Positions 7,711 to 55,123 of a DNA stretch of 64,000 nucleotides are shown here, one piece after another. The position numbers and the translations under genes are program-made. The notes under the pieces were generated by a model, which was not told the origin of the DNA, made no database searches, and saw nothing but the letters and a program-made list of their open reading frames with translations. How positions within the stretch are numbered: the first letter of the stretch is position 1; every line of letters starts with the position of its first letter. The stretch comes from Peribolospora baueri (taxonomy: Eukaryota; Basidiomycota; Peribolosporomycetes; Peribolosporales; Peribolosporaceae). Location of the stretch: the NCBI GenBank assembly GCA_029717555.1, contig JAMDHS010000068.1, positions 50,979-114,978 of the forward strand. The letters run 5' to 3'.

Positions 7711-10700
7711 ATGCCCTCGAAGAGAAAGAAGGCTTCCACAAGCCACTTTCCTGCTCCAAAACCGCGAAAAACCCTCTTTTCTGGCCGCGGAGAGCTGAGC
7801 GGGAACGCTGCGTGGGGATGGGTGGGCGCAGAGGTGCAAAGTACCCGGGACATCGGTCCTGGCCATATTCGGCGAGCATACCACCTGGATCGACCACTAT
7901 GCGGCAACTTCTATGACCGGAGCATCGAATGTATAGCGCGTGGCGTGGCGCTCGAGAAGGAGGAAGAGGAGAAAGCGAAGGAGGTCGCAAGGTTAGAGAG
8001 GAGGAAGAAGCGGGGTGGAAAAGCGACGGCGGAGGAAGCTGATGAGTCGGCGTCGCGCTTTCAAGTTGGTGCTAGCGATGTTAAGGGGAAGAGAAGGGCG
8101 GAAGGAGAACATCAGACTGTGACTGTCTGCGATGCTGTTGCCTGCGTTGGGAACCCCAACTGCCTCAATCATTTGGGGCAGCGCAAGTGGTTTGAGGGTG
8201 AGTAACCAAAAGTCCAGATAAACCTCGAGCGCCCGTTGTCTTCCACTTATTCCTCCTTTTGCTGGTTCTGTATTAGATGTTGGAGTTGATGCTTTTCTGG
8301 AGGCGACCAACATCGGGTCGGACCTTTCTAAGAGCTTACGATCGCATGTACCGGTCGGTCTCCGTAATCTCGGCGCTACATGTTACTGCAATGCCTTCCT
8401 GCAAGTTTGGTATCAAGACTTGTCCCTCAGGGAGGGCGTGTACAAGTGCAGGCCGCCTGGGCTGAATGATGGAAAAGTAAGTGCTATCCTGCTTTACGCC
8501 CCGGCGGAACGAAAAGCATAATCGGACGTGTGCTCGGCCCGTGGAGATGGGTGATTGATAGAAATTGGTCACATCGTTGGCGAGACTTGCAGGATTCGCC
8601 CATATTTCAGTTGCAGGTCATATTCACCGCCCTTCAAGAAGGACTCGCGTCTACCTTCGATCCTCAACGGTTCGTGACAAGCCTGCAACTTACGACCTCT
8701 GAGCAACAGGATGCGCAAGAGTGCGTGTCAAGTCATTTCATCATGCGACGCATTCTTCATAGTGATAGTTTCGGGTCCTTTCAGGTTTTCCAAACTCTTC
8801 ATGAACCTGTTAGACAAGCAGTTTCGAAAGCAAGATGACCCTGTGCTTCAAACCCTGCTTTCAGATCAAGTGAGTTCTCATTATCTTGCAACAGTAGACT
8901 GATGGTCACTGTCCTTTTCGTTGACTTTGTTCACGACTTTACAGTTCGAAGGTCAGCAATCTTACTGCACGAAATGCCACAAATGCAAAACAGTTTCTCA
9001 GCGGTCGAGCGCTTTCCTTGAACTGGAGCTACCTTTGAAGGTGAGTTTCCAGCATAAAGTTTGCTTTGGACAAGTAGCCCATTACCGGTGACTTGCTGGA
9101 CCGAATTTCGCCAGGAAAACGCGACCGTGGAAGAGCTCATCAACCGCATGCTTGAGCCGGAGACATTATCCGGCACCAATCAGTGAGGCCATTGGAAGCT
9201 TTGGGATCAGTGGAAGCCTTTTTCCTAATAGGCTGTCACTTTTCCGCCGTCGAGCAGGTATGCCTGCTCTGTTTGCAATAGCCTGCAAAACGCGGATCGC
9301 TACGTCCAGCTTGATCGCATTCCTCCGGTAAGTTAAGACGGGGCATTCCATTGTTTCTGGTAAGGTTCTGCTCACGTTTGGCTTATCGCTCTTGCCATAT
9401 AGGTCCTTCACCTCAGCTTGCTTCGTTTCGCGTTTGACGCGAAGACTGGAGATCGGAAAAAGTCACGCAATCGCATCCGTTTCCCCTCGCGAATAAATAT
9501 GGCCAGGTTCCTCAACCACGGTAGCGGAGACTCGATAGAGACTCCAGAAGACGTCTACGAGCTGCGTGGCGTTGTGTATCACGTTGGGTCCAGCGCTTAT
9601 CACGGACACTACATTGCGGATGCGGTCGATGTCCAGTGAGGAAGGCGAATACCCCTCGTGTTTACACGGGAAAGCAGACGTTGAATAACGCGACTTTCAT
9701 TGCCTGACAGGAGCGGTCAGTGGTACACTTTCGATGACGAACTTGTCAAGCCTATCGACGAACTTTCCGACCAAGCCTTGGATGAAACCATGGGTACCAG
9801 GAAAGAGTCGAACACGCCGCAGGTTGGAGATACCTCAACTGCTCAGTTAAGTCGTCCTAGCGAAATGTCCGACTCGCCAGGACAGATAGCCGAGGAAGGG
9901 AAAAGGTACATAGGCAGTCAACGTCATGCTCAGGGCAGCGCGGAAAGGCAAGTACAAGTATCGTTAGTTGTCTTAGGTTCCTTCTGGCTTGACTCCGTTG
10001 TAGTTAACCATATTTCTCATACTTCTCTACTTCCAGCTATAAGACGTCCCGGAACGCCTACATGCTCATTTATGCGCGTCGATCTGCACCAACATCTTTG
10101 TTCAAGTCTGTAACGGCTGATGGCCCCACCAAGGAATTTTCGACTTCTGCAGAGGTCAATCACGGTTTCGGAAGTTACATTGCCAGCGATCCACGTCCTC
10201 ACGATAATGTAGAAGGAGGGTCCGTTTCGTCATCTCGTACCGCAGTACCCACACCGCCTGCAGAAGCTCTTCTAGAGGTACAGCGGCTGAACGCCGAGCT
10301 GCAGGAGCGTATTTCAACATGGAAAGGGAACAAGGAGCGGTTGAAGCAAGAATTTGAGAAAATGCGTCGAGATAAGGCTGAAGTAGTCAGGCTTTGGCGG
10401 CCTGAGGAAGAGGTAGTAAGTATGCGCTTTATGTGACTCTTCTATACGTGAGTCCGTTCGCTAAGCGAAATGATCCTTTTTCTAAAAGGCCGAAAGCGTC
10501 TTCGTGGGCGAGGAAGCCCTACGTAGCTGGCTGGAACAGGGACTAGTCAAGAAAAATTTCAAGTCCACATCGGCGGATACAGGTCAGCACGGAACCGGAG
10601 ACGGTCAGCATGATGGCATCGATAATGGTAGCGCGTCAACGTCGAGATTTAATGAGGGCAACGCTGCTTTGGATTACGTCAACGAGGATCGTGGAACCGA

Positions 10701-38296: not shown

Positions 38297-39661
38297 ATGG
38301 CAGAACTCTACGCTGTGGCCGACTTTTGTCTTATCCCGATGGGAACGGGCACGAGCGTCGGTGAGTGGGTGCGGACGGAATCTGTCTCTTGTCCGGTGCC
38401 CCGGGTACGTGGATCGAACCGACAAACCTGGTCGAAGACGTCCATCGCGTTGTGCCGACATATGCGGCTGGCGTGAGGGAGAATATAGGCGTGGGATGAA
38501 GGATAGAGACAAGAGGGGGTCGGGGACGGTCATGCCCGCTTGTCCCCAGAAGCTTGTCCTGGATGGGACGGGGAAAGTCTCTAGACCGACTTGGACTCTT
38601 GCTGACCGGGCTGACATCCTCGCTCCGCATCCTCGCTCTTCGTCGCTTTCCTTATCGCCATCCTTATCACCACCATCCACACTCTCATCCGCATGTTCTC
38701 TTCCCATCCCTTATGGCGATGGCGTCTACAGGCGAGTACATCGCCGAATGTCAGCGCGTTCTCGAACGGAGCGGACTCAAGTATGAAGTGAGTGGATCAG
38801 CAGCGGCGCCCGTCTTTTGCTCGTCGGCCGTCGTCAAATTCCTGTTGGAGACGAACGGAGGACTTGGTAGTTAGGGACGGCCGGGGGTTCATAGCTCCTC
38901 CCGAATCAGCTTTGACGATCTACTTCGAAATCGGCGCTTATCGTCTCATTTCCATTTTCTCTTCCCTTCCGCGCGCGCTCTTCGTCTTTATCTGTTCAGC
39001 TGCAGTGCGTATCTTCAAGTCCCGTTGAGGCAAGACAGGCGCCAAAGAGAGGGCGCCCGGGGCTCGTTTGGTTCTCCGTGCCCCAATCGGAATGACTTGT
39101 CGTTTTATTGATGCGGCCTCTGACCTCTGGTTAACCTAGCACTCGATTTTCTTTCCACCGCTCTCTCCTTCCCACTGTTCATCCTCGCCTCGTAATGATA
39201 ACCGACTACCGACATGGCTCCCGTCATGGGCGCTCTATCCATCCTCCCCAACCCCACCCCACCCCATCCCATCCCATCTCATGCTGGCGAGCCACAGCGG
39301 CTACGGCACAAACGTAGAAGGCCCATTCGACGCGGTAACGTCAGCTCTAAAGGCATGTCACAAAGCAGTGCACGCGATGGGCGCCCCACGCATCTCCACC
39401 GACCTCCGCATCGGCACGCGTGTCGACAAGCCCCCGCCGCCCAAGCCCGAGATCATCTCCTCTTCTTCTTCTTTGCCGTCCGCTTCGGCCTCGGCCTCGG
39501 CGACCTCTGCGGCCGCAGCACGGGGCGCTGTTGAAGGGCGTGACGGGGGAGGGGAAGGAGGAGGGTGGGAGAAGGGCTTGGGAGAGAACGAGAGGAAGAG
39601 GGAGAGCGTGAGGCGAATCTTGGCGAAGGATAAGGCGAAGGAGGGTATGAGCAAGGTGTGA
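38297..39661 (+). CDS. ECM15/UPF0045 (MTH1187-type) thiamine-binding family protein
   Basis: Small alpha/beta protein of the MTH1187/YkoF-like family, whose members bind thiamine-type ligands; the role of yeast Ecm15 is not settled. Exons 38297-38360, 38732-38787, 39000-39004 and 39298-39661 give 162 residues. The core reads ADFCLIPMGTGTSV, GEYIAECQRVLERSGLKYE, then LH from the micro-exon, then GYGTNVEGPFDAV and STDLRIGTRVDKP, matching the family LKY-x-HG-x-GT-x-x-EGP pattern. The 5-nt exon is required: exon 2 ends in phase 0 and the last exon starts in phase 2, and the only codons that fit restore the conserved His-Gly. Family members are about 100 residues, so the Ser/Ala/Gly- and charge-rich tail of about 60 residues is an extension. 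Confidence 0.88.
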
Positions 39662-41392: not shown

Positions 41393-42655
41393 TCACAAAA
41401 CGAGGCACTTGCCGCCCTTGCCCGTACCGCTGCCGCGCTTCTTGGAGAGCAAGGCGGCTCTGGTAGCGTGCTCGAAAACCTCGCGAACTCCCTCGCCCGT
41501 CTTGGCGGAGCACTCGAGGTACTTGGCCGCGCCGATCTTCTGCGCCACCGCCATGCCCTCTTCTTGCGTTACGGGGCGCTGCGACGTCTTGCGGAGCTCG
41601 TCGATCGTCTTCGGGTCGCGGCGAAGGTCCTTCTTGCAGCCGACAAGGATGATGGGCAAACCGTTGCAGAAGTGCAGCACCTCGGAAATCCACTGTGGGC
41701 GATCGTGAAAAAAAGCCGGGTCAAAGGGGTAAGCTCTGTGCCTGCACCGAAGAAGACTACACCAACGTCCCCGCTCCACCCCCAGTGAAATCTCCGTCGT
41801 CGTTCATGCGAGGCATTAACTAAGCTACGACGTCGGGCGATGGACATAGCATGGTCGCGAGCGGCCGCTCGTCGTTCATGCGAGGCATTTACCAAGCTAC
41901 CACGTCGGGCGACCGACATAACACGGTGGCGAGGCTCACCTTTTCCTGAACGTTGTCAAGCGAATCCGGGCTGTCGACGGCGAAACAGATAAGGATGACG
42001 TGCGAGTCGGGGTAGCTGAGCGGCCTCAGACGGTCATAGTCCTCTTGGCCGGCCGTATCCCAAAGGGCGAGCTCGACGTGCTTGCCATCCACCTCGACGT
42101 CTGCGACGTAGTTTTCGAAAACGGTAGGCACGTACACCTGGGTGAGAGGGAAGGAGGGGAAGAGTTGAGCGCACAGGGACAACGAACATCGGAGGTCGCG
42201 CACGATCGCCCTCGGCGGACCATCCCCTTCTCGCCACACGGGCGATACATCCGCCACGCCGCCCCCCAGCCCTTCGCATATCTCGGTTCAAACGATCCGA
42301 AAGGACGGCCACCGGAAAGGAGCTCGAGATACGCAAGAATGGCGGCGTGCGCGAGATGTATGCAAGCGATGGAAAGCGAAGGACGGGCGCGGGGGGACTC
42401 AGCGCGTCTCGACGACAGACGACGACAGCCTGTGGCAAGCAGAGCAAGCGCTGCCATGTCGAGTCGGTGCACGAGACGAGACGAGACGTCGACGTCGTTG
42501 ACGACAGACAACGGGCGGCAGAAAGGATGAATGATGGGAGGAAGGAAGCGAAGACTGACCTCGGGGAAAGTACCCTTGCTGAAGACGATGAGCAGACACG
42601 TCTTTCCGCAGGCACCGTCGCCGACGATGACGAGCTTACGGCGGATCTCAGTCAT
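41393..42655 (-). CDS. rho1: Rho-family small GTPase Rho1
   Basis: Membrane-associated GTP switch controlling 1,3-beta-glucan synthase, Pkc1 and actin polarity. Exons 42655-42560, 42137-41940 and 41692-41393 give 197 residues. G1 is [11 protein letters not shown] (residues 12-22), switch [19 protein letters not shown]3 [21 protein letters not shown]4 [10 protein letters not shown], and the Rho insert region [17 protein letters not shown]5 is [10 protein letters not shown]. The C-terminus is GKGGKCLVL, a CaaX box ending in Leu that predicts geranylgeranylation. Intron 1 (42138-42559) and intron 2 (41693-41939) are long for this window, and intron 2 carries a 72-bp direct repeat. Rho1 is preferred over Cdc42 or Rac from the [10 protein letters not shown] and [12 protein letters not shown] segments. 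Confidence 0.96.
41798..41939 (+). repeat. 72-bp imperfect direct repeat inside rho1 intron 2
   Basis: Two copies offset by 72 bp (core CGTTCATGCG at 41801 and 41873) share most of their length, including AAGCTAC and ACGTCGGGCGA. The second copy runs into the donor region of the intron on the - strand. Confidence 0.85.
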
Positions 42656-55052: not shown

Positions 55053-55123
55053 GCTTTAATGGGGTAGTGGTAACCTAGGACCTTGCCATGGTCCAGCCAG
55101 GGGTTCGATTCCCCTTTAAAGCA
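55053..55123 (+). tRNA. tRNA-Gly, anticodon GCC
   Basis: The 71-nt gene folds as a complete cloverleaf. The acceptor stem GCTTTAA pairs with TTAAAGC, with discriminator A at 55123. The D-loop has TAGTGGTAA. The anticodon stem GGACC/GGTCC encloses TTGCCAT, giving anticodon GCC. The T arm AGGGG-TTCGATT-CCCCT is perfect. There is no intron and CCA is not encoded. The internal A box (GGGTAGTGGTAA) and B box (GGTTCGATTCC) serve as the RNA polymerase III promoter. Confidence 0.97.

Follow-up and report, generated by a model that had tools for sequence, protein, structure and literature searches.

The ECM15-like gene in the 64,000-nt stretch of Peribolospora baueri DNA analysed here (the window) raises the question of whether an internal coding exon of only five nucleotides can be genuine. 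An earlier, sequence-only reading of the locus placed such an exon, CTGCA, at 39000-39004 between a TTCAG acceptor and a GTGCGT donor, and both the coordinates and the letters read exactly so. On the evidence of the DNA and the predicted protein, the segment is very probably a genuine, and probably constitutive, internal microexon of an ECM15/Thiamine_BP gene, and the form that contains it would be the productive one.

The four coding segments of the proposed gene (table) join into 162 codons and a stop, open throughout. Residues 8-86 of the encoded protein match Pfam Thiamine_BP (PF01910) with 96.1 bits against a curated cut-off of 24.9, and the match spans positions 1-80 of the 92 in the profile; with a score over the cut-off and most of the domain covered, the protein belongs to this family, a widespread one of small thiamine-binding-like proteins. 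Yeast Ecm15 (YBL001C; PDB 1LXJ) is also matched, with an E-value of 9.3e-18. The ECM15-like protein resembles yeast Ecm15 and MTH1187 (1LXN) in protein family and spacing, and shares a Leu-His pair with the yeast protein, but differs from both in its long Ser/Ala/Gly-rich C-terminal extension. This extension (39440-39658) is absent from the 104-residue yeast Ecm15 chain, and its composition is coding-like (+17.0 bits over 39431-39658). One scan of the spliced protein against viral sequences found no relative, and a plasmid search returned two relatives, both bacterial.

Predicted layout of the ECM15-like gene and of the splice sites that compete with the microexon (positions in the window)
Feature	Position	Strand	Description
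Coding exon 1	38297..38360	+	M A E L Y A V A D F C L I P M G T G T S V G-; ends in phase 1; aligns with yeast Ecm15 (1LXJ) from residue 1
Intron A	38361..38731	+	371 nt; GTGAGT...CAG; donor 11.1 bits, acceptor 1.3 bits
Coding exon 2	38732..38787	+	-GEYIAECQRVLERSGLKYE; ends in phase 0
Intron B1	38788..38999	+	212 nt; GTGAGT...TTCAG; donor 11.7 bits, acceptor 3.8 bits; long pyrimidine-rich 3' region
Putative microexon CTGCA	39000..39004	+	5 nt; Leu codon and bases 1-2 of a His codon
Intron B2	39005..39297	+	293 nt; GTGCGT...CACAG; donor 6.8 bits; weak acceptor, 0.3 bits
Last coding exon	39298..39661	+	opens with base 3 of the His codon (CGGCTAC); stop at 39659-39661; Ser/Ala/Gly-rich tail
Competing acceptor AG	39138..39139	+	5.7 bits; CTGAC 16 nt upstream; exon from 39140 in frame with 38787
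Weak alternative donor CAA|GTATGA	38781..38782	+	-2.3 bits; permits joins that keep the frame and omit the microexon, at a cost of 2 or 4 residues

The 3' end of exon 2 reads AAG TAT GAA (38785-38787) and is followed by GTGAGT. Once CTGCA is joined in, the message runs GAA-CTG-CA|C-GGC-TAC-GGC-ACA and is translated as E-L-H-G-Y-G-T; the segment does restore the phase, as had been proposed, in a frame that is open across the whole CDS. The protein across the junction is then SGLKYELHGYGTNVEGP, and inclusion yields GLKYELHGYGTNVEGP, which aligns without a gap to PF01910 at the full 96.1 bits. In its context, TTCAG|CTGCA|GTGCGT, the segment has canonical splice sites on both sides and lies within the size range of microexons (<=30 nt), and its inclusion keeps both the frame and a family-consistent protein. 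Skipping it would join the codon boundary that closes exon 2 to the last base of a codon at 39298; the frame shifts, and the resulting protein is only 118 residues long and has the wrong C-terminal sequence. Retention of B1 leads to a stop after 68 residues, and retention of B2 to a stop after 71. Since skipping and retention both truncate the product, we infer that correct inclusion of the microexon would be needed for a functional protein.

The residues supplied by the segment were compared with those of 91 homologues, which comprise 87 sequences from database loci, mostly actinobacterial, and four PDB relatives, with yeast as the one eukaryote. Across the 16 columns SGLKYELHGYGTNVEG, 89 of the 91 are gap-free and two carry a gap, and the alignment with the four PDB relatives is gap-free from SGL to NVEG. 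The sequence-only reading had described His-Gly-x-Gly-Thr as conserved in the family. This is true of the Thr, present in 91/91, but not of the His or of the Gly after it, each found in only 2/91 (for His, one of the two is yeast Ecm15), and the motif is not family-wide among these mostly actinobacterial sequences. The Glu of TxxE is present in 90/91, and the Leu before the His in one, that of yeast. His-Gly may be usual among fungi. The argument for the putative microexon is carried by the spacing and by the Leu-His pair in common with yeast.

Alternative splice models were ranked among GT-AG joins from exon 2 to the last exon, with either one intron or one extra exon of <=90 nt, introns of at least 35 nt and a first donor up to 38880. 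There are 1111 such models with an open frame, including 18 without an extra exon. The microexon model is first of the 1111 by a family HMM built mostly on actinobacterial proteins (67.8 bits; next 62.2) and by the score against yeast Ecm15 (64.7; next 60.7). The 18 single-intron joins were rejected, their best reaching 55.9 bits against 67.8 with the family HMM and 53.4 with the yeast score. By Pfam PF01910, nine other joins score 77.1-88.8 bits against 96.1; the join with 88.8 bits also holds CTGCA, with acceptor 39292, and the best Pfam score without CTGCA is 88.7 bits, via a 4-nt exon at 39020. A score that adds splice-site strength to the protein score and deducts 14 bits for an extra exon again places the microexon model first of 1111 (76.3 vs 70.1). 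When GC-AG and AT-AC joins are added with no filter on site strength, the set grows to 11,598 distinct proteins and the microexon model is second on each single score (68.1 vs 67.8 by the family HMM, 65.2 vs 64.7 by the yeast score), with a different model in the lead each time. Taken alone, the protein score is suggestive but not decisive.

Splice-site strength was assessed with matrices from 21 GT-AG introns of five other genes in the window, anchored on conserved peptides, some of these introns having been picked among options partly by donor strength. The genes are those for a Rho GTPase, a CIA1-like WD40 protein, a Ubp15/USP7-like protein, an O-methyltransferase and a short-chain dehydrogenase; they were named from Pfam hits and, for USP7, from a PDB hit, and the names CIA1 and Ubp15 presumably apply. 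On this scale 2.9% of the GTs in the window score as high as the microexon donor (6.8 bits), and 12.4% of the AGs as high as its acceptor (3.8 bits). Intron length and local signals count against the microexon model. Introns B1 (212 nt) and B2 (293 nt) are long beside the 21 reference introns, 19 of which span 65-143 nt and the other two 247 and 422 nt, and the local signals favour acceptor 39140, with 5.7 bits against 3.8 for 39000 and 0.3 for 39298. By manual count, nine of the 21 reference introns carry the motif CTGAC at a distance of 15-50 nt upstream of the acceptor and 12 do not (the GC-AG intron of the Ubp15/USP7-like gene was left out); over their final 110 nt, introns A, B1 and B2 lack it. 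Near matches occur in B1 (CTTAT at 59, CTCAT at 51 and TTGAC at 84) and in B2 (CTCAT, 16 nt before the end). An RNA structure that draws the sites close to each other was considered and rejected, as 76 of 100 shuffles of the region 38770-39320 fold at least as well as the region itself (z 0.73).

Gene structure and the GC content of the window (58.8%) are in line with a basidiomycete host, and several features outside the ECM15-like gene are of note. Long introns occur in the Rho GTPase gene as well as in the ECM15-like gene. Intron 1 of the Rho gene, at 42559-42138 on the minus strand, is 422 nt long, far above the range of 19 of the 21 reference introns, and intron 2, of 247 nt, contains two direct 65-nt copies (41797-41933) that are 88% identical and lie 72 nt apart from start to start, a duplication that may explain its length. 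The Ubp15/USP7-like gene has a likely GC-AG intron at 32041-31959 on the minus strand (AAG|GCAAGC ... CCAG|GAC), for which the range searched offered no suitable GT-AG join. A tRNA-Gly (anticodon gcc) at 55053-55123 is the only Rfam match in the window at the gathering threshold.

How often might a site of this kind arise by chance? Within 38788-39297, CTGCA is the only AG-N(1-30)-GT sandwich in which both sites are at least as strong as those observed. On both strands of the 64 kb there are three 5-nt sandwiches this strong, the other two being AG-N5-GT sites on the plus strand, at 654-658 and 9711-9715, with splice sites equally strong. In 20,000 dinucleotide shuffles of the intron, any such sandwich appeared in 1136, a frame-restoring one of up to 30 nt in 346, a 5-nt site in 43 and a 5-nt site ending in CA in one, while a strong site combined with a protein score at the family-HMM level was seen once, and at the yeast level or at both levels never; the observed values served as thresholds, which makes every one of these rates post hoc. 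With the protein score as the sole criterion, 400 shuffles reached the family-HMM level 25 times, the yeast level 13 times and both seven times, and came within 3 bits of both 22 times. The signal above chance is weaker on this criterion than when the splice sites are included. None of the 21 reference introns holds such a sandwich, although this is a small control, with 766 nt searchable when 40-nt flanks are set aside (a heavy loss for introns of about 90 nt), 1363 nt with 25-nt flanks and 1993 nt with 10-nt flanks.

The rival that survives best has one 352-nt intron (38788-39139) and no microexon, so that the last exon runs from 39140, 53 Ser/Pro-rich residues replace Leu-His and the transcript would be 153 nt longer than the microexon form. 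The join from 38787 to 39140 is in frame and open without the microexon, and the earlier claim that phase obliges the last exon to begin at 39298 is overstated on this point. Of the four acceptors scored here, 39140 has the best local signals, among them the upstream CTGAC, and the model is second of the 1111 on the combined score, which credits it with two separate domain hits and leaves the insert uncharged. Its Pfam score, however, is 77.1 bits against 96.1, with the match split into two stretches, and its best single-domain score is 30.2 against 66.9. The insert, which we take to fall between helix 1 and strand 2 of the fold, interrupts a segment that has no gap in 89 of the 91 homologues. 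Its composition is also intron-like, at -19.1 bits over 53 codons (39140-39298), as is that of a longer exon 2 (38788-38873, -7.8 bits), whereas the four stretches scored from the accepted exons are all positive (2.7, 5.4, 12.9 and 17.0 bits); the codon model was trained on 1589 codons of three genes and on the 21 introns, with one Ubp15-like exon taken 3 bases too long. Use of 39140 would moreover make the strong CTGCA site a 1-in-20,000 coincidence, at thresholds set post hoc. Given the insert composition and the single-domain score, the microexon form is therefore kept as the productive one, with 39140 possibly minor or regulated. The 352-nt intron is considered unlikely, and acceptor 39140 is judged to be a decoy or the source of a minor isoform.

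A second possibility, about as unlikely, is compatible with a real microexon and supposes that both forms are made, the microexon form giving the normal protein and the use of 39140 or skipping giving an altered or truncated product, such that splicing tunes the output. In its favour, 39140 could credibly compete as an acceptor and keeps the frame when joined to 38787, and skipping shifts the frame; against it, fungi have few cassette exons and show mostly intron retention, as described in the available part of PMC2397502. A splicing switch between a frame-critical microexon and the stronger 39140 acceptor, which would set the normal protein against an in-frame 53-residue form or a frameshifted one, is offered with little confidence, such choices being rare in fungi.

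That the missing residues come from a different small exon within 38788-39297 or through a non-GT-AG join is very improbable. In the unfiltered set that includes GC-AG and AT-AC joins, one score is led by a model with donor 38792 and a 1-nt exon at 39052 and the other by a model with a 7-nt exon at 39210, the 4-nt exon at 39020 scores 88.7 Pfam bits, and a likely GC-AG intron is present in another gene of the window; but neither the 39052 nor the 39210 model is in the top eight on both scores, and no other AG-N(1-30)-GT sandwich in the intron is as strong as the CTGCA sites. Least credible of all is one intron from the weak donor 38781 (CAA|GTATGA) to 39292 or 39298, which keeps the frame in both joins, and in doing so contradicts the idea that phase 2 at 39298 is forced, but which scores only 80.8 and 77.4 Pfam bits against 96.1 and depends on a donor of -2.3 bits beside the 11.7-bit donor at 38788 and, for 39292, on an acceptor of -2.7 bits. 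The alternatives to a phase 2 start at 39298 lose on protein, splice-site or composition grounds, and not on phase.

If CTGCA is taken as a microexon, only 5 nt separate the acceptor AG of B1 from the donor GT of B2. The footprint of U1 covers approximately the last three exon bases and six intron bases, and U2AF and U1 could hardly occupy both sites together. B1 and B2, each with its own donor and acceptor, would instead be spliced out in succession, through ordinary intron definition; with one intron out, the five nucleotides would be part of an exon of normal size and the second removal would be routine. A recursive site consists of an acceptor directly followed by a donor (AG|GT) and leaves nothing in the mRNA. 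This explanation, or that of a zero-length exon, was rejected because AG and GT are separated by five nucleotides without which the frame is lost, and no sign of recursive splicing at CTGCA was found in the sequence. In a stwintron, as characterised in the accessible portion of PMC12403724, an inner intron splits a splice site of the outer intron and the whole stretch is removed; this too was rejected, since removal of all of 38788-39297 shifts the frame. The earlier suggestion that intron definition or recursive handling is implied was too strong: two ordinary successive introns would be enough, and intron definition is in any case the main mode of fungal splicing according to what is available of PMC2397502. 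Exon definition is in principle conceivable even for an exon this short, as the human MPC1 4-bp exon is constitutive and exon definition is argued for it in the text seen from PMC9929638. A steric bar to simultaneous occupancy at microexons is stated in the sections available from PMC8378409, where PRP-40-aided intron definition across long flanking introns is proposed for worm and mammalian cells. By analogy, PRP-40-type aid is possible at B1 and B2, both of which are long for the window.

Exons of this size or smaller have already been described in plants, animals and fungi, and a short frame-critical microexon is of a known kind and not a new class. In plants, the part of PMC8831610 at hand reports RT-PCR-validated microexons of 5 nt (rice) and 1 nt (APC11, VPS55), and 69 constitutive microexons were studied; like the ECM15-like exon these are tiny, frame-shifting coding exons missed by annotation, but they are validated by RNA, and the 1-nt ones are conserved across species, whereas the present exon is predicted from sequence. 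The human MPC1 microexon is similar in that its length is not a multiple of three and that it needs its own 3' and 5' splice sites; in the excerpted text of PMC9929638, minigenes were spliced without noticeable loss even at 0 bp and exon definition from flanking intron sequence is argued, whereas intron definition is more likely in the fungal case. Among basidiomycetes, P450 gene models of Phanerochaete chrysosporium also include very short exons, but the shortest given in the available text of PMC1184071 is 6 bp, or two whole residues. The NACHT-ankyrin microexons of Tuber melanosporum (in the part seen of PMC4986451, from Iotti et al. 2012) are of this size or smaller, but they are codon-sized and alternatively spliced, unlike a 5-nt exon whose skipping shifts the frame. 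Microexons of Schizosaccharomyces pombe are said to have been tested experimentally in what by its title is a study of intron definition (Romfo et al. 2000, as cited in the accessible text of PMC11121469), and the same source describes a microexon in Trichoderma virens Xlr2, likewise fungal, but switch-like and glucose-dependent. No fungal microexon was found in the available part of PMC8624252, and 'microexon' is a read-mapper option, with a single mention each, in PMC3990503, PMC8022950, PMC4014442 and PMC10470540. Among the matches listed in the literature on ECM15/YBL001C and microexons, no account of the exon structure of this gene was found.

If confirmed by RNA, the ECM15-like gene would be a clean example in a fungus of an exon that has only a few bases and yet determines the frame, and it could serve to find out whether a fixed order governs the removal of two introns that lie 5 nt apart. 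Such genes may be joined wrongly by gene predictors, in the present case most plausibly to 39140.
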